Part shown: in pieces, positions 12,348-32,106 of the stretch
Layout: every line of letters starts with the position of its first letter
Numbering within the stretch: position 1 is the stretch's first letter
NCBI GenBank assembly: GCA_023384495.1
Contig: JAHDWG010000012.1
Span: 2,924-36,914, forward strand
Direction of reading: 5' to 3'
DNA from: Caldilineaceae bacterium
GTDB taxonomy: Bacteria; Chloroflexota; Anaerolineae; Caldilineales; Caldilineaceae
Length of the DNA stretch: 33,991 nucleotides
Notes under the pieces: model-generated
The model's input: only the letters and a program-made list of their open reading frames with translations
Database searches by the model: none
What the model was told of the DNA's origin: nothing
Program-made: the position numbers and the translations under genes

Positions 12348-13475
12348 ATGATCCGTTTGCTTGCCCGACAGAGCATTGGCCTCCTTATCGGCGCGGGGGC
12401 CATGTTGGCTATGGTGGTGATCGCGCCAACCGCCGCCGCGCGTTGGCTGGAGGCGCCGGCAGAGACAGGCGCAGCGACGGTTGTGGCGGCGGCGCCGGCG
12501 ACCCCCATGTTGCACTATCAGGGCAGCCTGCTCGACCCGGCCACCGGTCGCCCCAAGGCCGATGGCGACTATCCCATGAGTTTCCGTCTCTATGAGGCGG
12601 CCAGCGGCGGCAGCCCTTTGTGGACAGAGTCCAAAAACGTGACCGTGAGCCGCGGGCTCTTTGCCACGCTCTTGGGAGACACCACCGCGCTCAACCTGGC
12701 GGTCTTTGATGGCCGCGAACTCTACCTGGGCGTCACGGTCGGCTCAGACCCCGAAGCGACGCCGCGCCAGCCGATTGCCTTTGTGGCCCATGCAATCTAT
12801 GCGGCCAATGCCGACAAGCTGGGTGGGCAGGCCGCTGCCGCGTTTGCGCCCGCCGCCCACACCCACGACGGTGCGGCGATTACCGCCGGCATCGTCGCCG
12901 AAGCGCGTATCGACCCGGCCATTGCCCGCGACAGCGAGATCATGCCGATTGTGGTGTCCAATGGGGGCGCGGGGTCGGGCCTGGACGCCGACCTGTTGGA
13001 TGGCCTGGATTCGAGCCAGGTGATCGGGGCGGCCCGCTCGCCGCTGAAATTTGTCGAGTGGACCGAAAGTTTTAGCGTGTCGACAGAGCGTCGATACTTC
13101 ACAGCGAATCATTTGCAGGTTACGCCACCCGCAAACGGCTTTCTCCTGATCCAGGGTCGGATCCGTTACAATTGCCCTGGCAACGTTACGACACAATCGC
13201 TCTTTGGCGCCTTTGTTTCAACCGCGGGCGGGGCGCCAACGTCGGCGACCGGTTTTACGCCAGGCAGTACAGTGGTCATGGGTCACGCCCACCCACTGGA
13301 TGCGTCAGGCAATGGGGGGGACTTCAACCCCCATGTGATCTTCTTCCCAATTGCAGTCACTGGCGGAACCACCTATCATATCTGGCTGGGCGCAAATGGC
13401 GTCAACGCCACAAACAACGCATGTTCCGCCTCTAGCCCACGCATCATTGCCACCTTTCATAGCGACGGGCTATAG
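12348..13475 (+). CDS. Secreted tail-fibre-like protein
   Basis: A 375-residue exported protein of unknown function. The signal peptide (about residues 1-31) ends in APTAAA. Residues 45-150 match a module often seen in bacterial exported proteins: YQGSLLDPATG, then SFRLYEA..GG..LW, GLFATLLGD and RELYLGVTVG. Residues 155-215 have tail-fibre-like motifs (HTHDGAAITAG, LDADLLDGLDSSQ). The last 150 residues look like a compact beta domain with a possible disulphide (Cys in YNCPGN and NACSAS). The start is the ATG at 12348 with GAGGAG about 10 nt before it; ATG 12330 and TTG 12327 are less likely. It is the first gene after the strong promoter. Unlike the next five genes it does not end in the LP tail. 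A structural or adhesive surface role is inferred from composition only. Confidence 0.8.
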   Translation: MIRLLARQSIGLLIGAGAMLAMVVIAPTAAARWLEAPAETGAATVVAAAPATPMLHYQGSLLDPATGRPKADGDYPMSFRLYEAASGGSPLWTESKNVTVSRGLFATLLGDTTALNLAVFDGRELYLGVTVGSDPEATPRQPIAFVAHAIYAANADKLGGQAAAAFAPAAHTHDGAAITAGIVAEARIDPAIARDSEIMPIVVSNGGAGSGLDADLLDGLDSSQVIGAARSPLKFVEWTESFSVSTERRYFTANHLQVTPPANGFLLIQGRIRYNCPGNVTTQSLFGAFVSTAGGAPTSATGFTPGSTVVMGHAHPLDASGNGGDFNPHVIFFPIAVTGGTTYHIWLGANGVNATNNACSASSPRIIATFHSDGL

Positions 13476-13493
13476 GCAAATGTGGTAACGTTT

Positions 13494-15827
13494 ATGGCTC
13501 GATACGTACAGCACGTCTCAAGGATGATTACGCCTCGGTTGGCGCTCGTGATCGCTGCGCTCGCCGCCGGTCTGTTGGCCGCGCGCGGCGGCCTGGCGCA
13601 GGAGTCGCCCAACTTCGCCTTGCGCCAGGCGCTGCTCAACAGCGGCGGCGGCGAGCGCCATTCGCCAAACCACCTGGTGCGCGATGGGCTTGGCCTGGCG
13701 GCGGCAGGGCGCGCGGCAAGCCCCACCTACATGGTGGTTGGCGGCTTTGGCGGCGGCGTCATGATGGTAGACCCGGGTGGCGACGAATTTGAGCCTGACG
13801 ACGACTGCGGTCTGGCCCGCACGCTGGAGGTGGATGCGCCCGCCCAAGTCCACAATTTTCACGCCGTCGGCGACCGTGATTGGATCCGCTTCACCGCCCA
13901 GGCGGGCAAAGGCTATCATATTGAAGTGGCCAACATTGGCGCAAACGCCAACGCGGTGGTGGGCCTTTATGACCAGTGTGACCGCCCGCCAGAGTCACAG
14001 GAGAGCAACGCATTTGGCCCCAGCGTGCGCATCACCTGGTTGGCCAGGCGGAGCGGCGACTATTTTATCGAATTACAGCAGTTTGACGCTGCCTTTGCCG
14101 GCGAGGGGACCGCGTACTCGGTGCGGGTGATGCTCGACAGAGAGCCGCCTTCGCCGCCACAAAACCCGCGCTGCACGGCGGTCAACGCCACGACATTGGG
14201 CCTACAGTGGAAGCGCAGCCCTGAACGCGACGTGCGCGGCTATCGGGTGAACTTCACGGGCATTCCTTCAGGGAGCGAAGATATTTTGGGCCCCGATACG
14301 GTCTATACTGAACTGGGTGGGCTAAACGCCGGCCAGACCTATCAATTTCGGGTGCTTGCGGTCGATCATACGGGCAACGAGAGCGAGCCGTCGGGCCAGG
14401 TCAGTTGCAAGGCTGAGGCGCCGCTGGACCTGTCTCGTCCGGTGGTGATCCTCAACCAGCCGGCCTTTGGCGGCGGCGTCTACACCACCACCGCCTACTC
14501 GATGACCTTTGCTGGGGTCGCCCTTGATGATGGGCAAAACCTGTTGCGAGCGCAGGTGCGCAATGCGACGCGCAATAAAGAGGGGTGGGACTATAGCCTG
14601 CGTGGGCGCGAAGGCGCGTTTCGCGTCCCCGATATCGGGCTTGCGATCGGCGACAACCAGATCCAGGTGCGAGTCTATGATGATGCCGGCAACGTGACAA
14701 CCGAGGAGCTTGCTGTGCGGCGTCTGGGGGAGGTGCAGGGTGGGGTGATCATCATGGCGGGTCACAACGAGACGTTCGGGCTGCAACGGAACATCTACAA
14801 TGCGGCGAACCGGGCGTATCGGATCTTCCGGGGTGCGGGGTTCACGGACGAGGCGATCCACTATCTATCGCCGGTGGCGCAGGATGCGACGGGGGATGGG
14901 GTATTCGACACGGATGGGCCATCGCGGCCGGCGGATCTGGAGGCGGCGGTGACGGAGTGGGCGCGGGGGCATGTGGGGCCGGGGAAGCCGCTCTACATCT
15001 ACCTGATCGACCACGGGTTTGCGGACAAGTTCTGTGCGGCGGGGTGCAGCGGGGGAGGTGCGTTCACGCCGGCGGAGCTGGACGGGTGGCTGCGGGTGCT
15101 GGAGGCGGCGACGGGAGTAGACCAGGTGACGATTGTGATCGAGGCGTGCCAGTCGGGGAGCTTCTTGGACCGTCACAACCAGGATGTGGCGAACAGCCTG
15201 TCGAAGGAAGGGCGGGTGGTGATCACATCGACGGGGCGAGCGAACAATGCGTATGCGTCGGCGGAGGGGGCGTACTTTTCGGATGCGTTCTTTTCGTGTC
15301 TGGCGGAGAGCAACAGCATGAAGGTGTGCTACGAGCAGGGGGTGTCGGCGGTGGGGGCGACGGGTGTAGACCAGACGCCGTGGCTGGACGACAACGGGGA
15401 TGGGGTGTCGAACGAGAACGACGGGGCGGAGGCGGACCTGCGGGTGGTGACGCGCTTCTTCCGTTCGGTGCGGCCGACGATCCGAGAGGTGAGCGTGGTG
15501 CGCAACGGGGCGAACGGGGTGTTGACGGCGATGGTGGAGGAGGGGGCCGAGGAGGTGGAACTGGTGTGGGCGACGGTCTACCCGCCGAGCTTCCGCGAGC
15601 CGGACACGGTGACGATCAACCTGAATGCGCCGACGGTGCGGCTGGAGCCGACGGGCGAGCCGGGGCGTTACGCCTTCAACTATCTCAACGGCTTCAGCGA
15701 GGAGGGCGACTATCGCATCGTCTTCTACGCCCAAGACCGGCTTGGCATCCACGGCGTCCCCCGCCGCGAAGGCGATTGGGGCCTTCCCAGTGACGGCGCC
15801 CTCTTTTTGCCGCTGATTCAGCGATGA
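13494..15827 (+). CDS. Secreted C13 (legumain-like) cysteine peptidase with PPC, Fn3 and Ig-like domains
   Basis: A 777-residue exported protein. After the signal peptide (cleavage near GGLAQE) and a short ESPNFALRQAL..GGG motif come a PPC-type domain (about 100-215; EPDDDC, DRDWIRF), an Fn3 domain (about 218-310), an Ig-like domain (about 315-410), the peptidase domain (about 413-655) and a beta domain. The clan CD dyad is visible: His507 in LIDHGF and Cys552 in EACQSGS, 45 residues apart, as in legumain-type enzymes. Paired cysteines (KFCAAGC) suit an oxidising exterior, and a calcium-type loop (DDNGDGVSNENDG) follows. The protein ends in FLPLIQR. The start is uncertain: GTG 13482, ATG 13494 and ATG 13524 are all possible. 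It lies 18 nt after the previous gene and 50 nt before the next, so co-transcription is likely. The catalytic part is an exact copy of that in the next gene. Confidence 0.9.
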   Translation: MARYVQHVSRMITPRLALVIAALAAGLLAARGGLAQESPNFALRQALLNSGGGERHSPNHLVRDGLGLAAAGRAASPTYMVVGGFGGGVMMVDPGGDEFEPDDDCGLARTLEVDAPAQVHNFHAVGDRDWIRFTAQAGKGYHIEVANIGANANAVVGLYDQCDRPPESQESNAFGPSVRITWLARRSGDYFIELQQFDAAFAGEGTAYSVRVMLDREPPSPPQNPRCTAVNATTLGLQWKRSPERDVRGYRVNFTGIPSGSEDILGPDTVYTELGGLNAGQTYQFRVLAVDHTGNESEPSGQVSCKAEAPLDLSRPVVILNQPAFGGGVYTTTAYSMTFAGVALDDGQNLLRAQVRNATRNKEGWDYSLRGREGAFRVPDIGLAIGDNQIQVRVYDDAGNVTTEELAVRRLGEVQGGVIIMAGHNETFGLQRNIYNAANRAYRIFRGAGFTDEAIHYLSPVAQDATGDGVFDTDGPSRPADLEAAVTEWARGHVGPGKPLYIYLIDHGFADKFCAAGCSGGGAFTPAELDGWLRVLEAATGVDQVTIVIEACQSGSFLDRHNQDVANSLSKEGRVVITSTGRANNAYASAEGAYFSDAFFSCLAESNSMKVCYEQGVSAVGATGVDQTPWLDDNGDGVSNENDGAEADLRVVTRFFRSVRPTIREVSVVRNGANGVLTAMVEEGAEEVELVWATVYPPSFREPDTVTINLNAPTVRLEPTGEPGRYAFNYLNGFSEEGDYRIVFYAQDRLGIHGVPRREGDWGLPSDGALFLPLIQR
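14715..15769 (+). repeat. 1055-bp perfect direct repeat, copy 1 (C13 cassette)
   Basis: This stretch matches 19886-20940 base for base at a constant offset of 5171 bp. It starts at the Val-Arg-Arg-Leu codons before the peptidase domain and stops at the Arg-Arg-Glu codons shortly before the tail. It covers the whole C13 domain, the calcium-type loop and the C-terminal beta domain. No terminal inverted repeats or transposase are present, so it is not an insertion sequence. Confidence 0.97.
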
Positions 15828-15877
15828 GTGTTGCCCTCTCTGCAATGGGCCGACGAGTTGACAGAGTATAAGGGATT

Positions 15878-18800
15878 ATGAGCCGAATTCAAATCACATT
15901 GCTCTTTCTCTTCATCGTGGCGGGGGCGTGGGGCGCGGAGCCAGCCAAGAGCCAGGGTGACCCGTGCGCCGGTGTGACCGACGCGCCGGCTGCCGATTGC
16001 AATGCGCTGGTGGCCCTCTACAATGCCACCAATGGCCCCAACTGGACAAAGCGCACCAACTGGCTGGCCAACAACTTGGTCTGCTCGTGGCATGGGGTGA
16101 CGTGCGGCGGCGGGCGGGTGACGCAACTGCGGCTGATGGCGAACGGCCTGAGCGGGACCGTTCCCCCTGCGTTGGCCAATGCGCAGCTTTTGAACTGGAT
16201 CGAGCTGCAAAACAACCAACTGACCGGCCCAATTCCACCGGAGTTGGCGCAGCTCAGCGCGCTGACCGAGCTTGCGCTCTACCAAAACAGCATGACCGGT
16301 CCGATCCCGGCGCAACTGGGTGGCCTGAGCAACCTGAGCGCCCTGCGGCTGGGCAGCAACCAACTGACGGGGACAATCCCGCCAGAATTGGGCAACCTGA
16401 GCGAGCTAAAGGCGCTGGGCATCAACAGCAATCAGTTGACCGGCATAATCCCGCCGGAACTGGGCAGCCTCTCGAAACTTGAGCTGATCAATGCGCACGG
16501 CAATCAATTGACCGGCCCCATCCCCAGCACGTTTAACAATTTCCCAGAGATGTGGCGGCTCTATCTGGAGAACAATCAACTGAGCGGTGAACTGCCGAGC
16601 GGGCTGAGCAACCTGGCCAAACTACGCGTCTTTTCGATTCGTAACAACCGCCTGAGCGGCCCAATCCCTACGTCGTACACCAATCTGACGGCGTGGAACA
16701 ATGTGGATTTGGGTTACAACATGCTGACCGCGTCGGACAGCGCGCTGGTCAACTTTCTCAATGCCAAAGACCCTGATTGGGCGCAGACGCAGACAGTCGC
16801 GCCGACCGGTGTGCAGGCTACCCCGCAATCGGGCGCCAGCGTCAGCGTGACCTGGACGCCGATTCCCTACACCGGCGATGGGGGATACTATGAGGTGGGC
16901 TTCGCTGCCAGCGCCGATGGCCCCTTTGTCGTCCACGGAAGGACGGCCAACAAGAGCGCCAATAGCTACGTAGTCACCGGCCTTTCGGCGCAGACAACAT
17001 ATGATGTTGTTGTGCGGTCGTTTACGCCCGCCCACGGTGAACAGGTTAACGAGCTGCTCAGCGACTACAGCCGACCGGCGTCGGCGACGACCGGCGCGTT
17101 TAGCTGCGGTGACGTATCGCAACTCCCCGCCACGGAATGTGAGGCGCTGGTTGCCCTGTACAACGCCACCACTGGCCCCGCATGGACCAACCGGACGGGC
17201 TGGTTGCAGACCAGCACGCCCTGCTCGTGGCATGGCGTCACCTGTAGCGGCGGCCGCGTTACCGAACTCAATCTATCGAGCAACAACCTGAAAGGCAGCC
17301 TGCCGCCGCAGATTGGCAACTTCCCCATGCTCAACAACCTGGCTGTGCGCGCCAATCAGCTTTCGGGCTCGATCCCGGCGGAGATCGGTCAACTGACAGC
17401 GCTGACGCGTCTGACGCTCTCCGAGAACCAGTTGACCGGCGATATCCCCACCACGGTCGGCAACCTGGTCAACATGGAACAGTTCTGGCTGCATTACAAT
17501 CAACTGACCGGCCCCTTGCCGACCCAACTAGGCAACCTGACCAGGCTCAAGCGGTTTGGCGCCATCGACAACCGGTTGAGTGGAACCATTCCCACACAGT
17601 TGGGCAATCTCACCAACCTGACTGAACTTTATCTGAATCGGAACTTGTTCAGCGGCTCGATCCCACCTCAGATCGGCAACCTGACCAAGCTGACCGTGTT
17701 GCTCTTTGTCAACAACCAACTGAGTGGTGAGATACCCACGTCGTTCACCAACCTGACCCAGGTGACCAATCTGAACGTTGGTTACAACCGGCTCACTGCA
17801 TCGGACCCGGCATTGCTCAACTTTTTGGCCGCCAAACACCCGACCTGGCTTGACACCCAGACGCTGCCCCCCACCAATCTACAGGCAACCGCTCAATCCA
17901 GCTTCCAGATCCGCCTCTCTTGGACGCCGATCCTTTATACGGCTGATGGCGGTTACTATCAGGTCAGTATGGCGACTGCGCCTGGTGGGCCATACGCCGT
18001 TCAGGGGGTGACCGCTGACAAAACGGTCGATGGTTTTACGGTCAGTGGCCTGTCGCCGGCCACCACCTACTATTTTGTCGTGCGCACGTTTACGCCAGCA
18101 GCCAATGTGCAAAAGAACAATCTGTGGAGCAACTACAGCGTCGAAGCCTCAGCCACCACGCAACAAGAGACAACGCCCGTTGCCCCCACCATCAATTCGG
18201 CGCCACTGACAACCGCGCTGCGCGGTCAGCCCTATGCCTATAGCGTAGTCGCCTCGGGCAGCGCACCGTTGGCCTTTGCGCTGGTCAAGGGGCCGGACGG
18301 CATGAGTGTAGACCCAACCACGGGGTTGCTGTCGTGGACGCCATCCGATGTCGGTTCGTTTGCCGTGACGGTGCGCGTATCGAACGCGGTTGGCTCTGCG
18401 GAACAGGCGTTCAGCGTGGTGGTCAACGACGCGCCTCAGATTACATCGACGCCGGTGGTGGCCGGCCTGGTGGCGCAGCCCTATGCGTATGATGTAGACG
18501 CAACCGGCGCGCCTGCGCCTGCCTTTTCGCTGAGCCTTGCGCCCACCGGCATGACCATCAACGCAACCAGCGGGCTGATCAACTGGACGCCCGCCACCGA
18601 AGGTGTCTACACAGTCACGGTCAAAGCCGCCAACCCGGTAGGGGTAGACGAGCAAACCTTCGAGATCAATGTGAGTGAAGTCACAGAGATGGTGGCGCCC
18701 GTGATCCTGTCAGAGCCGCCGCTTGCCGCCGATGTGGGCAAACGCTACGAGTATCTCGTCAGCGCATCCGGCGTCCCGGCGCCAGTCTTCAGCCTGGTCG

Positions 18801-20986
18801 ACGCGCCCGCCGGCATGACCATCAACAGCACCACAGGCGCCGTCGCCTGGGAGCCAACGGACGCCGGGAGTTTTGCGGTCACCATCCAGGTGTCCAATAG
18901 CGCCGGTGACGCGCAACAGAGTTTCACCGTGGTGGTGAGTGGGGTTGCCGAGGGCGATCTGTATGAAGATGACGACGCGTGCGAGAGGGCTACGACGATC
19001 CTCACCAATGGCGCCAAGCAGCAGCGCAATTTTCACGCACTGGGCGATGTCGACTGGATTCGCTTTGAGGCGCAGGCGTTCCGCACCTATATTATCGAGG
19101 TGATTAACCAGGGGTCGCTGGCCGACGCCGTCGTCGAGATCCACGATGAGTGCGACGAAACGCCATCGAGCCTGGCCAACAATGCCTTTGGCCGCAGCGT
19201 GCGCCTGGAGTGGGATGCACGGCGCAGCGGTGAATACTTCCTGCGCCTCAGCCAGTTTGATGGCGCCTCGTTTGGCGCCGAAGAGACCCGCTACGAGGTG
19301 CGCGTCACCGTGGATACGACACCGCCCCAGGCGCCGCAAAGCCCACGCTGCGCCCCCCTCAACGACCGCACCCTGGCCGTGCAGTGGAAGAAAAGCCCTG
19401 AGCGCGATGTGCGCGGCTATCGTGTGGCACTGACCGGCGTGCCGTCGGTCAATGAGGATGTGCCCGGCATCGCCACAACCTATGTGGAGATCACTCAACT
19501 GCGACCGAACCAGCGCTACGATGTGACCGTGAGTGCGGTGGACTTTTCGGGCAACGAGAGCCTGCCGTCGGGTGTGGTGCGCTGCCTGGTGGCCCCCCCA
19601 CCCGACACCACGCCGCCCGCGCTCACCCTCTCTAAGCCGACGGGCGGCGGCATCTACACCACCACTGCCTATTCGCTCACCTTTACCGGCGTCGCGCAGG
19701 ATGATGTCAATCTCGCCCGCGTCCAAGTGCGTAACGCCACACGCAACAAAGAAGGGTGGGATTGGAGCCTGAGCGGCCTCAGCGCCCCGTTCCGCGTGTC
19801 GGACATTGGGCTTGCCGTAGGGGACAACCGCGTCGAGGTAATGGTCTTCGATGATGCGGGCAACATGACCAAAGAGCAAATGGTCGTGCGGCGTCTGGGG
19901 GAGGTGCAGGGTGGGGTGATCATCATGGCGGGTCACAACGAGACGTTCGGGCTGCAACGGAACATCTACAATGCGGCGAACCGGGCGTATCGGATCTTCC
20001 GGGGTGCGGGGTTCACGGACGAGGCGATCCACTATCTATCGCCGGTGGCGCAGGATGCGACGGGGGATGGGGTATTCGACACGGATGGGCCATCGCGGCC
20101 GGCGGATCTGGAGGCGGCGGTGACGGAGTGGGCGCGGGGGCATGTGGGGCCGGGGAAGCCGCTCTACATCTACCTGATCGACCACGGGTTTGCGGACAAG
20201 TTCTGTGCGGCGGGGTGCAGCGGGGGAGGTGCGTTCACGCCGGCGGAGCTGGACGGGTGGCTGCGGGTGCTGGAGGCGGCGACGGGAGTAGACCAGGTGA
20301 CGATTGTGATCGAGGCGTGCCAGTCGGGGAGCTTCTTGGACCGTCACAACCAGGATGTGGCGAACAGCCTGTCGAAGGAAGGGCGGGTGGTGATCACATC
20401 GACGGGGCGAGCGAACAATGCGTATGCGTCGGCGGAGGGGGCGTACTTTTCGGATGCGTTCTTTTCGTGTCTGGCGGAGAGCAACAGCATGAAGGTGTGC
20501 TACGAGCAGGGGGTGTCGGCGGTGGGGGCGACGGGTGTAGACCAGACGCCGTGGCTGGACGACAACGGGGATGGGGTGTCGAACGAGAACGACGGGGCGG
20601 AGGCGGACCTGCGGGTGGTGACGCGCTTCTTCCGTTCGGTGCGGCCGACGATCCGAGAGGTGAGCGTGGTGCGCAACGGGGCGAACGGGGTGTTGACGGC
20701 GATGGTGGAGGAGGGGGCCGAGGAGGTGGAACTGGTGTGGGCGACGGTCTACCCGCCGAGCTTCCGCGAGCCGGACACGGTGACGATCAACCTGAATGCG
20801 CCGACGGTGCGGCTGGAGCCGACGGGCGAGCCGGGGCGTTACGCCTTCAACTATCTCAACGGCTTCAGCGAGGAGGGCGACTATCGCATCGTCTTCTACG
20901 CCCAAGACCGGCTTGGCATCCACGGCGTCCCCCGCCGCGAGGGGGAACTGGATTCTCTGTATTTGCCGCTTATCAGCAAGAATTGA
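15878..20986 (+). CDS. Secreted LRR / Fn3 / Ig-like C13 (legumain-like) cysteine peptidase
   Basis: A 1702-residue exported mosaic. The signal peptide ends near AEPAKSQG. Two modules follow, each with a plant-type LRR cap (CSWHGVTC), repeats of the N.L.G.IP..LGNL kind (nine in the first, eight in the second) and an Fn3 domain: residues about 27-405 and 407-763. Three Ig-like (He_PIG type) domains span 764-1024. Then come PPC (1024-1146), Fn3 (1146-1241), Ig-like (1241-1337), the C13 peptidase with His1436 (LIDHGF) and Cys1481 (EACQSGS), a calcium-type loop, a beta domain, and the tail YLPLISKN. The ATG at 15878 has AGGG 4 nt upstream. LRR and Fn3 parts usually bind protein or glycan ligands, so a ligand-directed or ligand-controlled extracellular protease is inferred. 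From about residue 1337 onward the codon use changes abruptly, together with the start of the exact repeat shared with the previous gene. Confidence 0.93.
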   Translation: MSRIQITLLFLFIVAGAWGAEPAKSQGDPCAGVTDAPAADCNALVALYNATNGPNWTKRTNWLANNLVCSWHGVTCGGGRVTQLRLMANGLSGTVPPALANAQLLNWIELQNNQLTGPIPPELAQLSALTELALYQNSMTGPIPAQLGGLSNLSALRLGSNQLTGTIPPELGNLSELKALGINSNQLTGIIPPELGSLSKLELINAHGNQLTGPIPSTFNNFPEMWRLYLENNQLSGELPSGLSNLAKLRVFSIRNNRLSGPIPTSYTNLTAWNNVDLGYNMLTASDSALVNFLNAKDPDWAQTQTVAPTGVQATPQSGASVSVTWTPIPYTGDGGYYEVGFAASADGPFVVHGRTANKSANSYVVTGLSAQTTYDVVVRSFTPAHGEQVNELLSDYSRPASATTGAFSCGDVSQLPATECEALVALYNATTGPAWTNRTGWLQTSTPCSWHGVTCSGGRVTELNLSSNNLKGSLPPQIGNFPMLNNLAVRANQLSGSIPAEIGQLTALTRLTLSENQLTGDIPTTVGNLVNMEQFWLHYNQLTGPLPTQLGNLTRLKRFGAIDNRLSGTIPTQLGNLTNLTELYLNRNLFSGSIPPQIGNLTKLTVLLFVNNQLSGEIPTSFTNLTQVTNLNVGYNRLTASDPALLNFLAAKHPTWLDTQTLPPTNLQATAQSSFQIRLSWTPILYTADGGYYQVSMATAPGGPYAVQGVTADKTVDGFTVSGLSPATTYYFVVRTFTPAANVQKNNLWSNYSVEASATTQQETTPVAPTINSAPLTTALRGQPYAYSVVASGSAPLAFALVKGPDGMSVDPTTGLLSWTPSDVGSFAVTVRVSNAVGSAEQAFSVVVNDAPQITSTPVVAGLVAQPYAYDVDATGAPAPAFSLSLAPTGMTINATSGLINWTPATEGVYTVTVKAANPVGVDEQTFEINVSEVTEMVAPVILSEPPLAADVGKRYEYLVSASGVPAPVFSLVDAPAGMTINSTTGAVAWEPTDAGSFAVTIQVSNSAGDAQQSFTVVVSGVAEGDLYEDDDACERATTILTNGAKQQRNFHALGDVDWIRFEAQAFRTYIIEVINQGSLADAVVEIHDECDETPSSLANNAFGRSVRLEWDARRSGEYFLRLSQFDGASFGAEETRYEVRVTVDTTPPQAPQSPRCAPLNDRTLAVQWKKSPERDVRGYRVALTGVPSVNEDVPGIATTYVEITQLRPNQRYDVTVSAVDFSGNESLPSGVVRCLVAPPPDTTPPALTLSKPTGGGIYTTTAYSLTFTGVAQDDVNLARVQVRNATRNKEGWDWSLSGLSAPFRVSDIGLAVGDNRVEVMVFDDAGNMTKEQMVVRRLGEVQGGVIIMAGHNETFGLQRNIYNAANRAYRIFRGAGFTDEAIHYLSPVAQDATGDGVFDTDGPSRPADLEAAVTEWARGHVGPGKPLYIYLIDHGFADKFCAAGCSGGGAFTPAELDGWLRVLEAATGVDQVTIVIEACQSGSFLDRHNQDVANSLSKEGRVVITSTGRANNAYASAEGAYFSDAFFSCLAESNSMKVCYEQGVSAVGATGVDQTPWLDDNGDGVSNENDGAEADLRVVTRFFRSVRPTIREVSVVRNGANGVLTAMVEEGAEEVELVWATVYPPSFREPDTVTINLNAPTVRLEPTGEPGRYAFNYLNGFSEEGDYRIVFYAQDRLGIHGVPRREGELDSLYLPLISKN
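15956..18165 (+). repeat. Intragenic tandem duplication of the LRR-Fn3 module
   Basis: The two LRR caps are 1140 bp apart (CTGCTCGTGGCATGG at 16081 and 17221). The ends of the two Fn3 domains are only about 1065 bp apart, because the first module has one extra repeat of about 24 residues. Protein similarity is high but the DNA has diverged, so this duplication is much older than the perfect C13 repeat. Confidence 0.85.
19886..20940 (+). repeat. 1055-bp perfect direct repeat, copy 2 (C13 cassette)
   Basis: Identical to 14715-15769. On the left the match ends where GTC (here) faces GCT (copy 1). On the right it ends where GAGGGGGAA faces GAAGGCGAT. The flanking Ig-like domains of the two genes are clearly diverged, so identity begins and stops sharply, as expected for gene conversion or a recent cassette replacement. 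Confidence 0.97.
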
Positions 20987-21036
20987 CGCAGCCCGTGGTT
21001 CTCGGTGCAGCGATGAAAAGGGCAGCATAGAGCAGG

Positions 21037-21125
21037 AACACAGAGCACACCGAGGAGACACCGAGCACGCAGAGGATTTTGTCCATTGAACAAGCCATCG
21101 AGTTTTTCTGGGTGTTCTCTGTGTT
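21037..21125. repeat. CACAGAG-type intergenic element
   Basis: The 233-bp gap 20987-21219 has no gene. It contains AACACAGAG at 21037-21045 with several degenerate echoes (CACCGAG, CACGCAGAG), and the exact reverse complement CTCTGTGTT at 21117-21125. Short arrays of CACAGAG/CTCTGTG words are common intergenic elements in many bacterial genomes. Their function is not known to me. This copy could fold into a stem with a loop of 71 nt. Confidence 0.5.
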
Positions 21126-21173
21126 GCGCTGTTCTGGGGCTTATTCATAGTGGAACAGCGTGAAACTGAATTT

Positions 21174-21198
21174 TGTTTGAAGCCACCGCCTTCAAACA
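21174..21198 (+). promoter_or_regulatory. 9-bp hairpin just upstream of the third C13 gene
   Basis: TGTTTGAAG (21174-21182), a loop of 7 nt and CTTCAAACA (21190-21198) pair perfectly. The hairpin ends 10 nt before the ribosome-binding site AGGA (21209-21212) and 21 nt before the ATG at 21220. There is no T run after it, so it is not a typical terminator. It may be an operator, an mRNA stabiliser or a translation-control stem. Confidence 0.45.
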
Positions 21199-21219
21199 CC
21201 TACGTGTATAGGAACAAAC

Positions 21220-24200: not shown

Positions 24201-25356
24201 GATGACCGTGATCGACAGCGCCGGGAACACGGGTCAGAAGTCGCAACGCATCCATCGGCTCAGCGGCAGAACGGGCGCGGTCATCATCGTCGCTGGGCAC
24301 AACGAGACCTTTGGCCTGCAGACCAATATCTACAATGCGGCCAACCGCGCCTATCGCATCTTCAAAACCGCCGGCTTCAGCGATGACAACATCTTTTACA
24401 TTTCACCCACAGGGCAGGACGCCGACGGCAATGGCAGCAACGATGTCGACGCGCCGGCAAGCCCAGACGCGGTGCAGCAGGCGATCACGGGTTGGGCGAA
24501 AGAGAATGGGCGCGTCGGCCCCGGCAAGCCGCTCTTCCTCTATATGATCGACCACGGCTTTGCCGATAAGTTCTGTGTCAATGGATGCAGCGCGAGTCAG
24601 GTGGTGACGCCCGAAGAGCTCAACGGTTGGCTCAAAAATCTCGAAGACGCCACCGGTCTCAACGAAGTGAATATCGTCATCGAGGCGTGCCAGTCGGGCA
24701 GCTTCATCGACCGGCCCAATGGCGCTGTGTTGAATGGCCTGGGTGGCGCCGGCCGCGTGGTTATCACCTCCACCGACCGCGCCAACAATGCCTATGCATC
24801 GGCGCAGGGCGCCTTCTTCTCCGACGCCTTCTTTTCGTGCGTGGCGGACAGCAACAACCTCAAGGTCTGTTTTGAGCAGGCCAGCGCAGCGGTGGCGGCC
24901 ACCGGCGTCAAGCAATTGCCCTGGATGGATGACAACGGCGATGGCGTCTTTAATAGCGGCGATGGCGCCGTGGCGCAAAACCGCCATGTCACCGCCTTCT
25001 TCAGCTCGATCCGGCCTGAGATCCGCAACGTGGAGGTGATCAGAGACGGCGCCAATGGACAACTGGTCGCAACGTTGGATGAGGGCGCAGAGGCCATCGG
25101 CCTGGTCTGGGCAACCATCTTTCCCCCTTCGTTTGAAGAACCCGACGGCGTGACGCTCAATCTCAACGCCCCCACGGTTCGGCTCGACCCCGACCCGAAC
25201 ACCCCCGGACGCTATCTGTTCAACTATGTCAACGGCTTTACCGAGGACGGCGACTACCGGATCGTCTTTTACGCCCAAGACCGGCTGGGCATCCACGCCG
25301 TGCCGCGGCGCGAGGGGCAATTGGATACCCTCTTCTTGCCCATCCTGTTCCGGTAG
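21220..25356 (+). CDS. Membrane-anchored C13 (legumain-like) cysteine peptidase with duplicated N-terminal domain
   Basis: A 1378-residue protein. One hydrophobic segment at about residues 15-38 follows a Lys/Arg-rich start and is probably an uncleaved anchor or signal. Residues about 61-366 and 367-665 are two copies of an unnamed domain. Each starts with a beta part resembling anti-sigma RskA-type folds (SDRLLVEM, SDRLTVAL), then has helices with AGFAKAAAD, EHVLNILYGESD and an EF-hand-like loop DHDEDGF.ENPGDGYGLL. A Pro/Thr linker (668-697) leads to PPC (697-817), Fn3 (817-913), Ig-like (913-1015), and the C13 domain with His1112 (MIDHGF) and Cys1157 (EACQSGS). A calcium-type loop, beta domain and tail FLPILFR follow. 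The protein closely resembles the two preceding peptidases over the shared part but uses ordinary host codons throughout. The ATG has AGGA 7 nt upstream. The 233-bp gap before it may hold its own control signals. Confidence 0.92.
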   Translation: MVDVKPNVIKKPRPFGYAILLVLVGLILLSAALATLWMQSVIPQRAFASLRSPGAASDFAGRVQVQDIGTASPSLKSDRLLVEMADVGAPPSGRSFYGYILGSNGQGRPFGPLAVAGGAVNANADFPGRNLVGAYSQVYIMQESRVFSATLPTAALSHLRTAVDRASDTPGQVGYSVGLVKQAAILHQHAGFAKAAADAGNLNGARLHTEHVLNILYGESDSRYGDHDEDGFAENPGDGYGLLHYSSSLSQTLQLAAAAADATPNVQTRVAQVQTTLGNIGSSSEAGLWSPVLIAAAAELLLAGSATAAQAPATQMVAATNRIYNGTDFNDNGEIEPVENEGGAIVAHRYTQRAADYLPPSSSGVSGSVQHRDADNNRKSDRLTVALTGLPTPAAGEQYYVYLVNADNDWLWLGGLAGSGGTLEGTINRTGVNLIAGYQRLYVSVGALYADGDLPPDALNHLRMALHRVVDTPDETGFAVGLMRQAQLVYAHAGFAKAAADGNNLPDAKLHVEHVLNILYGESDPRFGDHDEDGFPENPGDGYGLLRYSQSLSQTLQQAADSADATDNIRTRVAEVQTTLGNIGDPSTNSAWVDTLIARAEDILNATTAAGAQTPANQLVTAADRLLNGTDLNDNGVIDPLPNEGGARTAYRHTQYAVDYTLELRAPSSPLTPTPLTGTPSVTPTSTPTGGPSPDGDAYEADDSCEQAKPIAVDGSEMQMRTFHAEGDVDWVKFTAQLNKTYVVEVRNVGPKADAVLYLHDVCAAPPSAFEGKAFGSTVRLIWNSTKAGDYFLQLQQFDPSFFGPDTHYHLTVTEDVTPPTTPINLRCVAIDATTLGVQWQKSPETDVVRYRVTFRNQTATSSGNRDVAGADQTYVEIDNLAAGELFDLQVVAIDFSGNESGASAPVQCRAAAVADPTQPVLTLQQPTASGVFTTTAAQVTFTGFAQDAGGNLSQVHVKNLTNQSEGRDFSLSGGNTSFRVENLSLNIGDNDILMTVIDSAGNTGQKSQRIHRLSGRTGAVIIVAGHNETFGLQTNIYNAANRAYRIFKTAGFSDDNIFYISPTGQDADGNGSNDVDAPASPDAVQQAITGWAKENGRVGPGKPLFLYMIDHGFADKFCVNGCSASQVVTPEELNGWLKNLEDATGLNEVNIVIEACQSGSFIDRPNGAVLNGLGGAGRVVITSTDRANNAYASAQGAFFSDAFFSCVADSNNLKVCFEQASAAVAATGVKQLPWMDDNGDGVFNSGDGAVAQNRHVTAFFSSIRPEIRNVEVIRDGANGQLVATLDEGAEAIGLVWATIFPPSFEEPDGVTLNLNAPTVRLDPDPNTPGRYLFNYVNGFTEDGDYRIVFYAQDRLGIHAVPRREGQLDTLFLPILFR
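21400..23215 (+). repeat. Tandem duplication of an uncharacterised domain of about 300 residues
   Basis: Copy 1 runs about 21400-22317 and copy 2 about 22318-23215. The EHVLNILYGESD segments are 909 bp apart. Both copies keep the Asp-rich loop, the NPGDGYGLL motif, the TRVAQVQTTLGNIG/TRVAEVQTTLGNIG segment and the closing NGTD.NDNG.I.P..NEGGA motif. The second copy diverges mainly in the beta part. Confidence 0.85.
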
Positions 25357-25502
25357 GGTGGATCAGACGCCGAAACATACTCCGGGGCCGTTGAGGGCTG
25401 TGCGCCAGAACACTGTGGTGGTGTGCGCCGGTACACAGCAGGCAAGGTCAACCGGCGCCATGATCTAACCACTTCCACCAACAGCGCAAATCTGGATGGA
25501 CT

Positions 25503-28500
25503 ATGAATGCTTCAGATACAAACCTACGTCGACGCCGCTTGCTGGTCACGAGCGCGCCCCTAGTGATGGCTGTGGCGCTCCTCTGCGCCATGACCTTCCC
25601 CATGCCGCAGCCCGGCCGCGCCGCCGCGGCTGCCGGGCCGGACCTGACGGTGGAGGTCAGTCTGTTGCCCACCACGCCCGTGGCCGGCCAGGAGGTGACG
25701 ATCCGCGTGGTCGCCCGCAACATCGGGACGAGCAACGCCGCGGAGCGGGTTGAGGTGCATCTCTATGTGGACCCGCCCGACCGCCCGCCCACGCCGACGA
25801 CGCTTGGCTTTCCGATTATCAGCATCCCAGGATTGGCGGCCGGCGACACTGCGCAAGGGGAACGAACGCACACCTTCACCACCAATGATTGCAACCACGT
25901 CATCTACGCCTGGATCGACCGCGACGGCGGTATCGCCGAAAGCGATGAGACCAACAACCTGGTTGCGCTGCCGGTTTGCGTGGGCGTGGTCTGCGAGCCG
26001 GATGGCTACGAAGAGGACAATTCCTGTAGCGCCGCCGGCCTGCTCTCCGAGAATGCCAGCCAGGCGCGCAGCTTCTGCCGCGCCGACGACCACACGCTCG
26101 CCGATGAGGATTGGGTCAAGTTCACCGCATTTGCCGGTGTTACCTATACCCTGGCCGCCACCAATCAGGGCGCCAACGCCGCCCCCCAATTCGAACTGTA
26201 TGGCGCATGTGGCGCAGCGCCGCTAACCGATGGCGATGATCAGGTGGCCTGGCGCGCAACCGGCGACGGTGTGCTCTATGCCCGGCTGCGGCGCGCCGAC
26301 GGCGTCAGCGGGCCGCTCACCGCCTACAGCCTGACGCTGAGCAGCGCCACCGGCGTCACCGATGACTACGAGCCGGACAACCGTTGCGCCGACGCGCGTG
26401 ACATCCCCACCAATGGGGTGCGCCAGACGCGCCTCTTCCAGGCGCCGGGCGATGAGGATTGGGTCAAGTTTACCGTCAGCGCCGGCGAAAGCTTTATCAT
26501 CATCGCCGACAACACTGCGCCGGGCGTCAACCCGTTGGTGACCGTCTTTTCTTCGTGTAGCCAAGTGGATGCGAACGCCAGCTTGGGGCCATCCGCCGCC
26601 CAGGTGGCCCAAAGCAGCACGACCGACGCCGTCTACTTTGCCAGAATTCGCAACCAGAATCCGGCCAACTTTGGCGCAGCCGCCCGCTACGACCTCGCCG
26701 TCACCGCGGCGGCCTGTGCGCCTGACGGCGAGGAGGGGGACAACGACCGCACTCAGGCGCGCATGGTCACGGTGGGCGCAGCCGCCCGTACACACAATTT
26801 CTGCCCGGCCAGCGATGAGGATTGGGTCAAGTTCAGCGCCAAAAAGGGCAAGGTCTATGTGCTCCAGACCACCAATCTGGCCTTTGCTTCCGATACGGTG
26901 CTTCACCTCTATGATACCGATGGAACGACCGAATTGGCGCAAAACGATGATTACGGCTACACGAGCGGTTCGCGGATTGTTTGGGAGGCGCCCGCCGATG
27001 GACTCTACTTTGCCAAAGTGCGCCACGCCAATCCCGTCGCCAGTGGGCCGAACACCCAGTATGACCTCGCCGTGCAGGAGGGCGTCTGCGCGCCGGATTC
27101 GTTTGAGGGCGGCGCCGGCAACAATGGCCCTGGGGATGCGCCGCTGGTCGCCACCAATGGCGTCAGCCAGACACACACATTCTGCGCCGATGCGCTCAAC
27201 CCCCTGCTCGGTGACCAGGATTGGGTCGCCTTCAACGCGGTGGCGGGCGGGAACTACCAGATTGTCACCACTGGTCTTGGCGCCAACAGCGACACGGTGC
27301 TCGAACTCTACGACCGGGACGGGGCAAGGCAATTGCTGCATAACGACGATGTGGGCGCCGGGCGCGGCGCCATGTTGACCTTTACCCCCACCCTCTCTGG
27401 CGCGTATTTTGTACGGGTCACCCAGTTCAACCCCAACCTGGTAAGCCGCGACGCCGACTATCAGTTGCAAATTTTTGGTACAGAGCCGCCCACGCCAACG
27501 CCCACCCCGACGTTGACGCCGACGCCCAGCCCGACCCCCTCGCCCACCGCAACCCCGCAGCCCTCGACGGTCAAGACGCTGATCGTGGTCAACCGCGAGC
27601 GGATCGAAACCTTGCATGGCGCCGGCCCCGCCGATACGCTCTTTCGCAAGTTGAGCCAGTTCGCCAATGACAGCGACGTCGAGGGCGTTGTGGTGGAGGT
27701 GGAGCGCGACCCCGCGGTGGCCGCGGCCTATGCCGCATGGACAGCCGATGCGACGACGCTCGCCGACCACGAACTCGCCAACAACACGGTCGCCGCCATC
27801 CGCAACCGGGTGATGGGCTTTCTCGCCAGCGCCCCCCAGGCCCGACATGTGGTGATCATCGGCGATGACCGCGTCGTCCCCTTTCGCCGCGTGCTGGATC
27901 GGGTGGCGCCCACGGGCAAGCAGGCCGCCTCGGTGGAGTCTGTTTATGCGCAAGAGCTGACCGAGGAGGGAACCGTCTACGCGGCGCTGGCCGCCAACAT
28001 GATCCTGACCGATGATTACCTCGTTGACCGCGAGCCGAGCCAGTGGCAAGACCGCCAGCAAAACGAGTATGAACTGTTTGTGCCAGACTATGCTGTGGGC
28101 CGGCTCGTCGAGGAGCCCGATGAGATCATCGCGGTGCTCGACAATTTTCTGGCCGGCGACAAGATGATCGGCGCGGCCAATGCGCTGGTGACGGGGTATG
28201 ACTTTGTACAGGACAGCGCCGACCTGATCAAGACGCTCTTCCGCAACGACGCCATCCCCACCGACGCCGAACTGATCGGCGCAAGCTGGACGGGTGACGC
28301 CCTGCGCGCCAAATACCTGACCGCCGCGCCTCGCTATGATCTCTACTCAGTCAATGGTCACTCCACTCACCTGGCCGCGGGCGCGCCCGACGGCAGCGAC
28401 ATGACCGCCGCCCAGATTTTGGCCGCCACCACCGACCTGCGCGGGGTGTTGGTCTTTAGCCTGGGCTGCCATAGCGGCCTCAATGAGCCGGGCGTGCTCG

Positions 28501-29684
28501 ATCTGCCGCAGGCGTTCTTGCGCAAACAGGCGCACTATGTGGGGAAGACCGGCTTTGGCTGGGGCGGTGGCGGCGTTGTCTTTAGCGAGGCGCTGATGCG
28601 CAACTTTGCGCGCGAACTGCTGCGCGACACCGAAGCCGCCATCGGGCCGGCGTTGATGGACGCCAAGCGCAAGTATGTGAGCCAGGCGCGGCGCTTTGAC
28701 GCGTTTGACGCCAAGGTGCTCATGCAGATGACGCTCTACGGCCTGCCCATGGTCAGGATGCAGTCGGGTGGCGCGCTGACCGACGATGACCCCTTCCCCA
28801 GCGCCCAGCCGCAGTTTACGCCGCCCACCTCGTTTGGCAGCGTGGCCGAGGGCGCGGCGGGCTATCGGTTGCCCAGCTCGTTTGGCGCATTTGGCGCGCA
28901 GTCGAGCGATGCCGGCGCCACATTTGAGCTGGACGGCAATGTGGCGTTTGGGGTCGATGAGCCGCTCCAGCCGCTCTACTACACCGACGTATCGGCCCCC
29001 GCGGTGGGGCCTCTGCGCGGCGCGGTCTTTTTGGGCGGCGTCTACAGCGACACGGTCAACGTCGACCCTGTGATTGGCGCGCCGCTCAACGAATATGTCA
29101 CCGACCGCAGCGAGCCTGCGTTCTACGCCGACGAATTTTATCCGGCGGCGCCCTTTACCATCCGCAGCAGCGATACGATCTCGGGCGCGGCCGACACGCT
29201 GGTGATGAACCTGGGGCAATTCCAGAGCGGCCCCGATGTTGCGGCAGCCGCGGCGGGCCGGGGCGTCGTCCGCCTTTACGATCAAATGTCGTTTGGCGTC
29301 TATTACTCCACCAGCCCCGACCGCAACGCGGCCAACATCGAAACGATCGACGGCGTGCTCGACCCGGATGCCGGCATGGGGCGGATCAAGGTGGACGCCA
29401 ACGACGCATCGGGCGTACGGCGGGTGGTGGTGGCCTTTACCGAGGGGCAAGGGCAATGGTTGAGCAAGGACTTGACCTTTGACGAGCAGGCGCAAAAGTG
29501 GACCGGCGTGATCACGGGCACGGTCAATACGCGCTTTTTCGTCCAGGTCGTGGACAACGCAGGCAATGTGGCGGTCAACGAAAACAAGGGGCGCTACTAT
29601 CGCCTGGCCGAGCCAGTTCCGCTGGCCGAGGGCCGCCCGTTGATGGTGGAGCGCCGCGTCTATTTGCCGTTGGTCAATCGGTAG
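25503..29684 (+). CDS. Secreted gingipain-like (C25-type) peptidase with CARDB and four PPC domains
   Basis: A 1393-residue exported protein. The signal region (about 1-43) has a twin-Arg-rich start (RRRRLLV). A CARDB domain spans 45-160 (DRDGGIAESDETNN). Four PPC domains lie at about 162-280, 282-400, 402-522 and 524-660, each with a DEDWVKF or DQDWVAF core. A Pro/Thr linker (660-690) precedes a C25-type caspase fold (690-1090): VVIIGDDRVVPF, DYAVGRLVEEPDE, the candidate catalytic His953 in VNGHSTH and Cys989 in LGCHSGLNEP. His956 is a second possibility. The C-terminal 300 residues are beta-rich, ending in a domain with VVDNAGNVAVNE, and the protein stops with YLPLVNR. Gingipains cleave after Arg or Lys; the specificity here cannot be read from the sequence. 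The Cys pocket GCHSG resembles the C13 form ACQSG. The ATG at 25503 has GGATGG upstream. A 146-bp gap separates it from the previous gene. Confidence 0.88.
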   Translation: MNASDTNLRRRRLLVTSAPLVMAVALLCAMTFPMPQPGRAAAAAGPDLTVEVSLLPTTPVAGQEVTIRVVARNIGTSNAAERVEVHLYVDPPDRPPTPTTLGFPIISIPGLAAGDTAQGERTHTFTTNDCNHVIYAWIDRDGGIAESDETNNLVALPVCVGVVCEPDGYEEDNSCSAAGLLSENASQARSFCRADDHTLADEDWVKFTAFAGVTYTLAATNQGANAAPQFELYGACGAAPLTDGDDQVAWRATGDGVLYARLRRADGVSGPLTAYSLTLSSATGVTDDYEPDNRCADARDIPTNGVRQTRLFQAPGDEDWVKFTVSAGESFIIIADNTAPGVNPLVTVFSSCSQVDANASLGPSAAQVAQSSTTDAVYFARIRNQNPANFGAAARYDLAVTAAACAPDGEEGDNDRTQARMVTVGAAARTHNFCPASDEDWVKFSAKKGKVYVLQTTNLAFASDTVLHLYDTDGTTELAQNDDYGYTSGSRIVWEAPADGLYFAKVRHANPVASGPNTQYDLAVQEGVCAPDSFEGGAGNNGPGDAPLVATNGVSQTHTFCADALNPLLGDQDWVAFNAVAGGNYQIVTTGLGANSDTVLELYDRDGARQLLHNDDVGAGRGAMLTFTPTLSGAYFVRVTQFNPNLVSRDADYQLQIFGTEPPTPTPTPTLTPTPSPTPSPTATPQPSTVKTLIVVNRERIETLHGAGPADTLFRKLSQFANDSDVEGVVVEVERDPAVAAAYAAWTADATTLADHELANNTVAAIRNRVMGFLASAPQARHVVIIGDDRVVPFRRVLDRVAPTGKQAASVESVYAQELTEEGTVYAALAANMILTDDYLVDREPSQWQDRQQNEYELFVPDYAVGRLVEEPDEIIAVLDNFLAGDKMIGAANALVTGYDFVQDSADLIKTLFRNDAIPTDAELIGASWTGDALRAKYLTAAPRYDLYSVNGHSTHLAAGAPDGSDMTAAQILAATTDLRGVLVFSLGCHSGLNEPGVLDLPQAFLRKQAHYVGKTGFGWGGGGVVFSEALMRNFARELLRDTEAAIGPALMDAKRKYVSQARRFDAFDAKVLMQMTLYGLPMVRMQSGGALTDDDPFPSAQPQFTPPTSFGSVAEGAAGYRLPSSFGAFGAQSSDAGATFELDGNVAFGVDEPLQPLYYTDVSAPAVGPLRGAVFLGGVYSDTVNVDPVIGAPLNEYVTDRSEPAFYADEFYPAAPFTIRSSDTISGAADTLVMNLGQFQSGPDVAAAAAGRGVVRLYDQMSFGVYYSTSPDRNAANIETIDGVLDPDAGMGRIKVDANDASGVRRVVVAFTEGQGQWLSKDLTFDEQAQKWTGVITGTVNTRFFVQVVDNAGNVAVNENKGRYYRLAEPVPLAEGRPLMVERRVYLPLVNR

Positions 29685-29705
29685 CACGTTGGTTCATCGG
29701 GTAGG

Positions 29706-29858
29706 CTGGGCGTCTGGCCCGGCGGCAGTCCGTTGCAGAGCTATGTCGAACTGGCGCAAACCGCGCTGCTGCTGCAACACTTGACCGCGGGGATGGATTC
29801 TTACGTCATCGCCCTGAACATACCTATTCCAAACCGGGAACAATTTGTCAGCTTCTGA
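29706..29858 (+). other. Possible gene remnant or leader ORF before the next gene
   Basis: The 187-bp gap 29685-29871 contains an open frame that reads like real protein (LGVWPGGSPLQSYVELAQ, later VIALNIPIPNREQF). It ends in TGA at 29856-29858, directly at the ribosome-binding site of the following gene. An in-frame ATG at 29793 would give a 21-residue peptide but has no clear Shine-Dalgarno. I do not recognise the family. It may be the end of a lost gene. Confidence 0.25.
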
Positions 29859-29871
29859 AAGGAGCAAGCTT

Positions 29872-32106
29872 ATGTCAGCAGGTGAACAATGGCGGAAAGC
29901 CCGTAGTTTCGTCTGCACAGTGGTGGCGACGGCGGTGATGACCACCCTGTGGCTGACCCCCGCCTATGCCGCCGAGCCGAGTGGCGCCCACGAGCCCACC
30001 AGCGCCGAGGCAATCACGGCCGATGATGGCGGGCCGTGGGAGATTGGCATCCACGGCACCGCCGGCGATCTGCCGGCCGCCACCGCCGCCGAGCGCACGG
30101 GCATGGCCTTCTGGCTGGCGCCGCTGCCGAACTGGAAAGTGAACTATTCGTTTAATGAGGCGAGTGCATGGGAGCGGGATTTCAAGCGTCATGATTTGGG
30201 TGGGACCAACAACTACTACATCGATGCAGTGGACCTGCAATTCTATGTCGGGCATGGCTTTCACAGTGGCTTCACGTTTGCCAACCCCAACTTCAACGAC
30301 AGCACGCTCACCCCTGCCGACTGCAACCGGGCCTGGGGTGACGGTGACAATGAATGGCTTGCGCTCACCTCGTGCCAGGTGTTGCGGGGGTCGTTTGACA
30401 ACATCCCGGCGCAGAACATCTTCCCCAATGCAGGCATCCCCAGCCTGAACCGGTGGGCGAGTTGCATGAACGGCCAGCATCTGATCCTCGGCTTTGTCAC
30501 CAATGCCAGCGCCTACAATAACCCTGCCAGCACCCAAGCCTATCACTTTGGGCGCTACCTGGCGTTGAATTACACGGTGCCTCAGGCGTGGTATCGGGCC
30601 TGCGACGTAGCCCAGCGCGGGCGCGTCACCCGCACCATCATCAACGAGCTTGCGTGTCTCAACGACCGGCCCCAGTCAGGAATCGTCTGCGCCGATTCAT
30701 ATGACACTGACTGGTGGTACCAGACCCACTACTGCGGCACCGAGACCGCGATCCAGGTGCCGGTAGAGAAGTTGCAATCCCAGATGCCCGTCTATCGCGT
30801 GGCGCCCTACAGTTTGGATGACGCCACCCGCGATGAGGAGCGGCTGAGCGAAATCCTCTTGGGCGCCCCGATCACGGCTACCGTGCGCTCCGCCGCGCTC
30901 AACCGGGACGACCCCTTCCGCGTACGCACCGTCATCTCGCGTTCGCTGGAACTCGACGAACGCAGTGGACTCTTTACCTACACCGATCTGGCGGAACTGT
31001 GGACGCAATCGCAGGCCGAAGCCGCCCTGGCGGTGACGGCGGCGTCGCCCAACTTCATCAACAGCGATGACGCCCGCCGCATTGCCGACACCTTCCTGCG
31101 CCAGAATCAATTGCTCGGCACGGGCGCCGTCTTCAACCAGGTCATCTCCGACACCATCTCCAGCGAGATGACCTCGGACCCGGGTACACCGGAAGCAGCC
31201 GGCGCCGATGGCATCGAGCAGGTTGATGAATCGGCGCTGGTCTGGAATGTCATCTACTCGCGCCGCCTCAACGTCGACATTGTCACCGCAGCCGGTGTGG
31301 AGCAATTCGAGTTCTCGGTGGTTGGGCCGGGGGCCAAGCAAAAGGTCTATGTCCCGGTGGCGGCTGAGGTGGGCGCGGCAAGCAAGCTCCAGACCACACC
31401 GGTGGGTATGCAGGGTGGCTGGCGCGAGGTGCAGACCGAGGTCAACGCGGCCACGGGCCAGATGCTCATGGTGGACATCCGCCCTGAGTCGCAACTGCGC
31501 GAGCTCTATCTGGCCCTGCCCGACCGAGTGGCGCTCAACGATGTCCCGCTCGATGTGGAAAATCGCGAAATCCTGAGCTCAACCGTGGCCTACTGGGAAG
31601 AGGCGCCAGGCGTCGGCCAGGCCGAACTGGTGCCCGTCTACGAGTTCCTGGTGCGCATGACCGAGCGCAACAGCGGGGATACGCACGATGAGTATGTCTA
31701 TGTGCCGGCCAGCGAAATCTACATGCGCCCCTACGCCCAAATCGTTAGCGTTACGCCTTCCGGCCCGGTGAACGCCGGAACCACGCTGACGCTCACCGCA
31801 GCCGATGCGTCGCAGACCCTTCAGGAACTGGGCGCAGGCGACTTCGACTTTGCGCTGGGCACGGGCGCCGACGGCACCTTTGCCTACGATTGGTTTGTGG
31901 GCAGTGTCGATGACGCCAACCTGATCGGCAGCGGGCGCACGATTGAGTTCGCCGCCCCGGCCAACCCCAGCGAACGCGAGGGGGTGCTGGAGATCCACCT
32001 GCGCGTCAAGGATGTCGAAAGCCCCAACACGCAGACGGCCACCGCCGATGTGACCATCACGGTCAACCCGTCGGTCTTCCTGCCGCTGATCGGCGGGCAG
32101 GAGTAG
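29872..32106 (+). CDS. Secreted protein with a DUF6345-like, possible caspase-fold domain
   Basis: A 744-residue exported protein. The signal peptide ends in TPAYAAE. Residues about 55-270 resemble a family that I recall as DUF6345. They contain DLQFYVGHGFHSGF with His128-Gly, then WLALTSCQVL with Cys168, and a later GQHLILGFVTNAS. A His-Gly followed 40 residues later by a Cys at the end of a hydrophobic strand is the arrangement seen in the C13 genes upstream (45 residues), so a clan CD-like peptidase fold is possible; this is inference. Residues 270-620 have no family that I recognise. Residues about 625-735 form an Ig/PKD-like domain, and the protein ends in FLPLIGGQE. The ATG at 29872 has AAAGGAG 7 nt upstream, the best ribosome-binding site in the cluster. 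It is the last gene of the plus-strand series; a hairpin follows 31 nt after the stop. Confidence 0.85.
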   Translation: MSAGEQWRKARSFVCTVVATAVMTTLWLTPAYAAEPSGAHEPTSAEAITADDGGPWEIGIHGTAGDLPAATAAERTGMAFWLAPLPNWKVNYSFNEASAWERDFKRHDLGGTNNYYIDAVDLQFYVGHGFHSGFTFANPNFNDSTLTPADCNRAWGDGDNEWLALTSCQVLRGSFDNIPAQNIFPNAGIPSLNRWASCMNGQHLILGFVTNASAYNNPASTQAYHFGRYLALNYTVPQAWYRACDVAQRGRVTRTIINELACLNDRPQSGIVCADSYDTDWWYQTHYCGTETAIQVPVEKLQSQMPVYRVAPYSLDDATRDEERLSEILLGAPITATVRSAALNRDDPFRVRTVISRSLELDERSGLFTYTDLAELWTQSQAEAALAVTAASPNFINSDDARRIADTFLRQNQLLGTGAVFNQVISDTISSEMTSDPGTPEAAGADGIEQVDESALVWNVIYSRRLNVDIVTAAGVEQFEFSVVGPGAKQKVYVPVAAEVGAASKLQTTPVGMQGGWREVQTEVNAATGQMLMVDIRPESQLRELYLALPDRVALNDVPLDVENREILSSTVAYWEEAPGVGQAELVPVYEFLVRMTERNSGDTHDEYVYVPASEIYMRPYAQIVSVTPSGPVNAGTTLTLTAADASQTLQELGAGDFDFALGTGADGTFAYDWFVGSVDDANLIGSGRTIEFAAPANPSEREGVLEIHLRVKDVESPNTQTATADVTITVNPSVFLPLIGGQE

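Follow-up and report, generated by a model that had tools for sequence, protein, structure and literature searches.

A conserved cluster of exported clan CD protease candidates in Anaerolineae with a copied C13 catalytic cassette and divergent front ends

Secreted caspase-fold enzymes such as the gingipains, clostripain and legumain are known singly. Clan CD enzymes are often zymogens, and a sortase-like role has precedents in PorU (family C25), which acts in type IX secretion, and in the eukaryotic GPI transamidase (family C13). In clan CD, the His lies on the loop after strand 3 and the Cys after strand 4 (PMC4357240). Among surface fibres, the MAT fibres of Bdellovibrio recognise prey glycans (PMC10769870). 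Here we describe a locus of a Caldilineaceae (Chloroflexota) genome in which five exported-looking proteins stand in a row, a set that recurs in other Anaerolineae. Neither a cluster of this kind, nor DUF6345, nor the C-terminal motif described below was the subject of any paper found in a literature search.

The window, that is, the whole stretch of 33,991 nucleotides that was analysed, spans contig positions 2924-36914, and its end coincides with the contig end. The source genome is a MAG of 7.6 Mb in 764 contigs, with 95.5% completeness and 8.2% contamination. Six ORFs occupy positions 12348-32106, all on the plus strand. A fibre-like exported protein (P2, 12348..13475) lies upstream of the protease part (13482-32106), which consists of three C13 (legumain-like) proteins followed by one C25-like (gingipain-like) protein and one DUF6345 protein. 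The first-pass annotation had described a row of five proteases on one strand, and the ORFs were found at that place and on that strand. It had also taken all of the proteins to be exported, which agrees with the signal-like N-terminal segment that we recognised by eye in each of the six ORFs and which predicts their export. It had further placed the row behind one strong promoter. This was not supported, as the only candidate is a single sigma-70-type sequence on the plus strand (TTGACG-17-TATACT, 12098..12126), with a 10/12 match and 0.4 such matches expected by chance. The later cluster genes are spaced 50-233 nt apart, so that the sequence does not demonstrate a single transcript for the row. 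An Rfam search of the window gave no matches. To the left of the cluster, on the minus strand, Pfam identified a bacterial alpha-2-macroglobulin (2976-8933) with a thioester-like CNEQ motif, which adjoins a penicillin-binding protein (9033-11864) that comprises Transgly and Transpeptidase domains. It is possible that the alpha-2-macroglobulin serves as a protease trap beside the cluster. A plus-strand gene truncated by the contig end (33447-33989) gave no family match and carries the stretch 'IQGDAHVGGDFVNRDKV', which we take to be of a kind present in proteins with NACHT or CHAT domains.

The three C13 proteins share a PPC-Fn3-Ig-like-C13 core. In C13a (13482..15827, plus strand), this core follows the signal directly and ends in FLPLIQR; Pfam detected fn3 (E=2e-12) and C13 (E=2.4e-5), and the catalytic His and Cys codons are at 15012-15014 and 15147-15149. 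C13b (15878..20986, plus strand) carries two LRR-Fn3 blocks and three He_PIG domains ahead of the core and ends in YLPLISKN. C13c (21220..25356, plus strand; Pfam C13 E=1.4e-7, His codon 24553-24555, Cys codon 24688-24690) is fronted by a duplicated unknown domain, a head type that was also observed in G014, G018, G020 and G032, and ends in FLPILFR. The duplicated domain (21370-23310) contains GDHDxDGxxENPGDGYGLL motifs and belongs to no Pfam family. All three proteins passed the Pfam Peptidase_C13 cut-off of 22.8 bits (24.4, 24.3 and 31.8 bits), and the DHG/EACQSGS pairs reported earlier were present in each as DHG/EACQSG. In homologues, the His of the dyad was conserved in 50/50 sequences and the Cys in 50/52. 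The assignment of the three C13 proteins to clan CD is thus supported at the sequence level. The differing N-terminal parts that had been listed for the row were recovered for the LRR-Fn3, duplicated unknown and CARDB-PPC types, but not for the type given as "none", since C13a has PPC-Fn3-Ig-like domains.

Comparison of C13a and C13b revealed identity base for base over 1,055 bp, covering the catalytic domain only (14715..15769 in C13a and 19886..20940 in C13b, both on the plus strand). Identity sets in where the catalytic domain begins and stops short of the C-terminal tail, which is variable. The upstream flanks of the tract have about 67-70% identity, and third-position identity is 1.00 inside the tract compared to 0.40-0.67 upstream. 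The window contains no N, and the exact identity could partly stem from the MAG assembly, given its 8.2% contamination. A second genome of the same family showed the same contrast: neighbouring C13 genes of G018 share 86% identity over the catalytic part and 51% over PPC-Fn3-Ig, compared to 80% and 76% (front part) for the orthologous pair G018a/G030a, and third-position identity in G018 climbs at the same domain boundary as in C13a/C13b. The G018 pair, which is older and not exact, is an independent case and argues for a real copying process despite the MAG origin of the window. The contrast was weaker in G020 and mostly absent in G014. In trees, the catalytic part mixes head types within genomes, whereas the front part tends to sort by head type. 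Collectively, the sequences of these two genomes, with the contrast between catalytic and front parts in C13a/C13b and in G018, indicate that a uniform C13 catalytic cassette is repeatedly copied between neighbouring paralogues with different heads by gene conversion, while the front ends diverge. The earlier description of swapped front domains is therefore better reversed. Its idea of one secreted protease type with different heads fits in that the catalytic domains are homogenised while heads and PPC-Fn3 parts diverge; the suggestion that the heads are sensors found no support.

The C25-like protein (25503..29684, plus strand) comprises CARDB, four PPC-like repeats, a C25 caspase-fold domain, a beta-rich tail and the C-terminus YLPLVNR. 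Its catalytic domain extends from 27570 to about 28830, with the His codon at 28359-28361 and the Cys codon at 28467-28469, and the NGHSTH/GCHSG pair was present as first described. A Pfam search of the protein itself gave no Peptidase_C25 match; PF01364 (Peptidase_C25) was matched by 12/28 of its homologues (best 1e-12), and the His and Cys of the dyad were intact in 27/28. The caspase fold, which had been set beforehand as a check, was borne out by a confident AlphaFold2 model built from 28 aligned sequences (pLDDT 90.9, pTM 0.91). Foldseek with this model returned gingipain K (Kgp, E=1.5e-9), latent PorU and separase as top matches, and the CHAT protease of Craspase and caspase-7 as lower matches. 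These modelling results support the assignment of the C25-like protein to clan CD. No type IX sorting domain was found at its curated cut-off, since Por_Secre_tail scored 21.9 of the 23 bits required, and this inside a PPC repeat. In a profile search, the tail behind the C25 domain (28803-29680) weakly matched the pro-domain of gingipain R2 (E 0.017). Possibly, this beta-rich tail is a built-in inhibitor located behind rather than before the enzyme.

The DUF6345 protein (29845..32106, plus strand; PF19872 E=6e-33) combines a GHG...SC domain with a mixed beta C-terminal part and ends in FLPLIGGQE. The GHG/TSC pair, which the first reading of the sequence had pointed out, was present (His codon 30253-30255, Cys codon 30373-30375), and the His-Gly and the Cys were invariant in 42/42 homologues. 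Its model has a pLDDT of 78 overall and about 55-70 in the catalytic part, and shows the order strand-helix-strand-helix-strand-GHG, then strand-SC. The GHG and the SC hence match the places of the clan CD dyad (PMC4357240). Profile comparison by hhalign against C13 and C25 aligned GHG on DHG, at E values that were not significant (0.03-0.05). The proposed caspase fold agrees with the strand order of the model. In Foldseek with the whole model, a search dominated by the beta-rich C-terminal part, the 50 best matches included no enzyme of clan CD. We consider it likely that DUF6345 is a member of clan CD. Clan CD identity is therefore supported for four of the five proteins and likely for the fifth.

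The set was found again in related genomes. G014, G018 and G020, all of the same family, repeat the arrangement of fibre, C13, C13 with duplicated head, C25-like and DUF6345 (1-3 copies), and G011 of this family does so without the second C13. MNXL and VGOD, which are more distant, carry fibre, C13 and DUF6345. A survey of the class (298 genomes) detected C13 in 15, C25-like in 71 and DUF6345 in 21 genomes. C25 was found in 13/15 C13 genomes (3.6 expected, hypergeometric p 2e-7), DUF6345 in 8/15 C13 genomes (1.1 expected, p 7e-7) and C25 in 14/21 DUF6345 genomes (5.0 expected, p 2e-5), all over the 298 genomes with relatedness ignored. C13 and C25-like genes lie on one contig in G011, G145, G165, G191, G193, G245, G311 and G313. 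The co-occurrence anticipated for related genomes is therefore strong, and it is linked across several Anaerolineae families. Among other heads, the relatives carry NHL and RCC1 propellers, a CBM96-like domain, CARDB, TIG and PA14. Contig C410 of G027 has seven C13 proteins in a row on one strand; in this row (L049-L051, 10171-58000), the C13 proteins range from 760 to 4,000 residues, some have RCC1 propeller heads, and one has two catalytic domains, the first of which has lost its Cys. Catalytic domains that look inactive were found in G038, in that first domain of the double C13 protein and in the C25 of L060, which suggests that not all cluster members cut.

We propose, with a probability of roughly 0.55, that the cluster is a conserved Anaerolineae set of exported clan CD cysteine endopeptidases that are differently targeted, surface-displayed or secreted, and likely nutritional in use. 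Each protein would be exported via its N-terminal signal and would then probably be sorted or anchored by a lineage-specific C-terminal [FYW]LP motif. The heads (LRR, NHL and RCC1 propellers, CBM96-like, CARDB and PPC) look like binding modules. Judging from the domain names, front modules such as LRR, propeller, CBM-like, CARDB and PPC may each recognise a certain surface or substrate and would thereby direct a single cutting activity to different targets. Gene conversion between paralogues would keep the C13 activity uniform while the heads diversify, and the fibre-like protein would probably supply adhesion to a partner cell or matrix. The most likely use of the activity would be nutritional, with a filamentous, floc-forming lineage degrading proteins that are extracellular or belong to foreign cells. 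Proteases reported for an activated-sludge Chloroflexi filament (PMC6753630) fit this nutritional reading without testing it. A further-reaching version, which we put forward only tentatively, is a recombination-driven surface protease repertoire: catalytic cassettes homogenised by conversion with ends at domain boundaries, free heads, three clan CD families including DUF6345 as a new peptidase family, a MAT-like fibre and an undescribed Chloroflexota C-terminal sorting signal.

The enzymes could alternatively form a proteolytic cascade, in which C13 and C25 activate or mature each other and DUF6345 by zymogen processing. A single enzyme at the end would do the bulk degradation, as in the cascades of gingipain/PorU or of caspases. 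That one conserved cluster unites three clan CD families is consistent with this, as is the likeness of the C25 tail to the gingipain R2 pro-domain (E=0.017). However, that match is weak and absent among the best 50 structure matches, and members also occur alone (C25-like in 71/298 genomes, C13 in 15). We consider a cascade rather doubtful.

The fibre-like protein bears on a second alternative, a predation or antagonism module in which contact with other cells would bring the fibre and the targeted proteases into action against them. In G014, G018 (two loci), G020, G011, VGOD and MNXL, the fibre gene immediately precedes the first C13 gene. It has a conserved N-module weakly like Bdellovibrio MAT_N: NF053851 was matched by this module in 7/9 homologues (E 8e-5 to 3e-10), and the C-terminal heads of the homologues differ. 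By analogy, this may hint at a prey-recognition-like role, which is only a lead. With at most 40 of 60 bits, neither the fibre-like protein nor its homologues reached the curated NF053851 cut-off. The source genome has five copies of the N-module, which is thus not special to the cluster, and no immunity gene or toxin delivery genes were seen. We consider a predation module distinctly unlikely.

The five proteases share a C-terminal [FYW]LPxxxR/K-like motif, with C-termini at window positions 15827, 20986, 25356, 29684 and 32106, which was also found in other Chloroflexota. [FYW]LP was present within the last 12 residues of 53/54 complete cluster proteases compared to 7/159 other ORFs in the same loci. 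Counts of motif-bearing genes rest on DNA patterns: a strict pattern of ~[FY]LPx[VI]xR plus stop gave 21 matches in the source genome (G000) compared to 0 in the reversed control, and 108 compared to 23 reversed over 201 genomes of the phylum (sums of listed counts). The sampled motif-bearing proteins are mostly exported-looking, with linkers ahead of the motif. From these patterns, the motif is probably a sorting or anchoring signal; to our knowledge, no such signal has been described before. A sortase-like role, in which the clan CD enzymes cut the motif and attach exported proteins to the surface, would agree with PorU being among the best fold matches of the C25-like protein and with the motif being common to the proteases and many exported proteins. 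We disfavour this role and consider it very improbable, as genomes in which neither C25-like nor C13 was matched (e.g. G039, G085, G238 and G275) also carry the motif, and the few residues after it leave little to remove. Still less credible is the reading that common multidomain proteins, all exported, have come to lie side by side by chance and have no joint function. PPC, Fn3 and CARDB modules are widespread, gaps reach 233 nt and a single transcript is not proven, but the linked co-occurrence across many families speaks against this reading.

If the proposed targeted set is correct, a row of three clan CD families with exchangeable heads and a uniform cassette would show how bacteria build a targeted protease repertoire. 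DUF6345 would gain a candidate function, and many exported proteins of the Chloroflexota would be indicated to use a common C-terminal signal. Polymorphic toxin systems likewise recombine a constant part with a variable one. In contrast to them, the C-terminal enzyme is constant here, the N-terminal part varies, and no immunity genes were seen. Bdellovibrio MAT fibres resemble the upstream protein in its similar N-module and variable C-terminal tips, but this protein scores below the family cut-off. The DUF6345 protein is a clear member of PF19872; this family has no function on record (no paper found), whereas we propose it here as a clan CD peptidase. With MEROPS C25 (gingipains, PorU), the C25-like protein shares the fold match to Kgp and PorU, the NGH/GCHSG pair and, through its 12/28 homologues, PF01364; it differs in being fronted by CARDB and four PPC-like repeats and in lacking a Pfam C25 match of its own. 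The C13 proteins resemble MEROPS C13 (legumain, GPI transamidase) in scoring above the Pfam Peptidase_C13 cut-off, in carrying DHG and E/D-A-C-x-S-G motifs and in weakly matching an asparaginyl endopeptidase from plants (E=0.001). They differ from it as exported bacterial multidomain proteins with a PPC-Fn3-Ig core, exchangeable heads and a [FYW]LP C-terminus.
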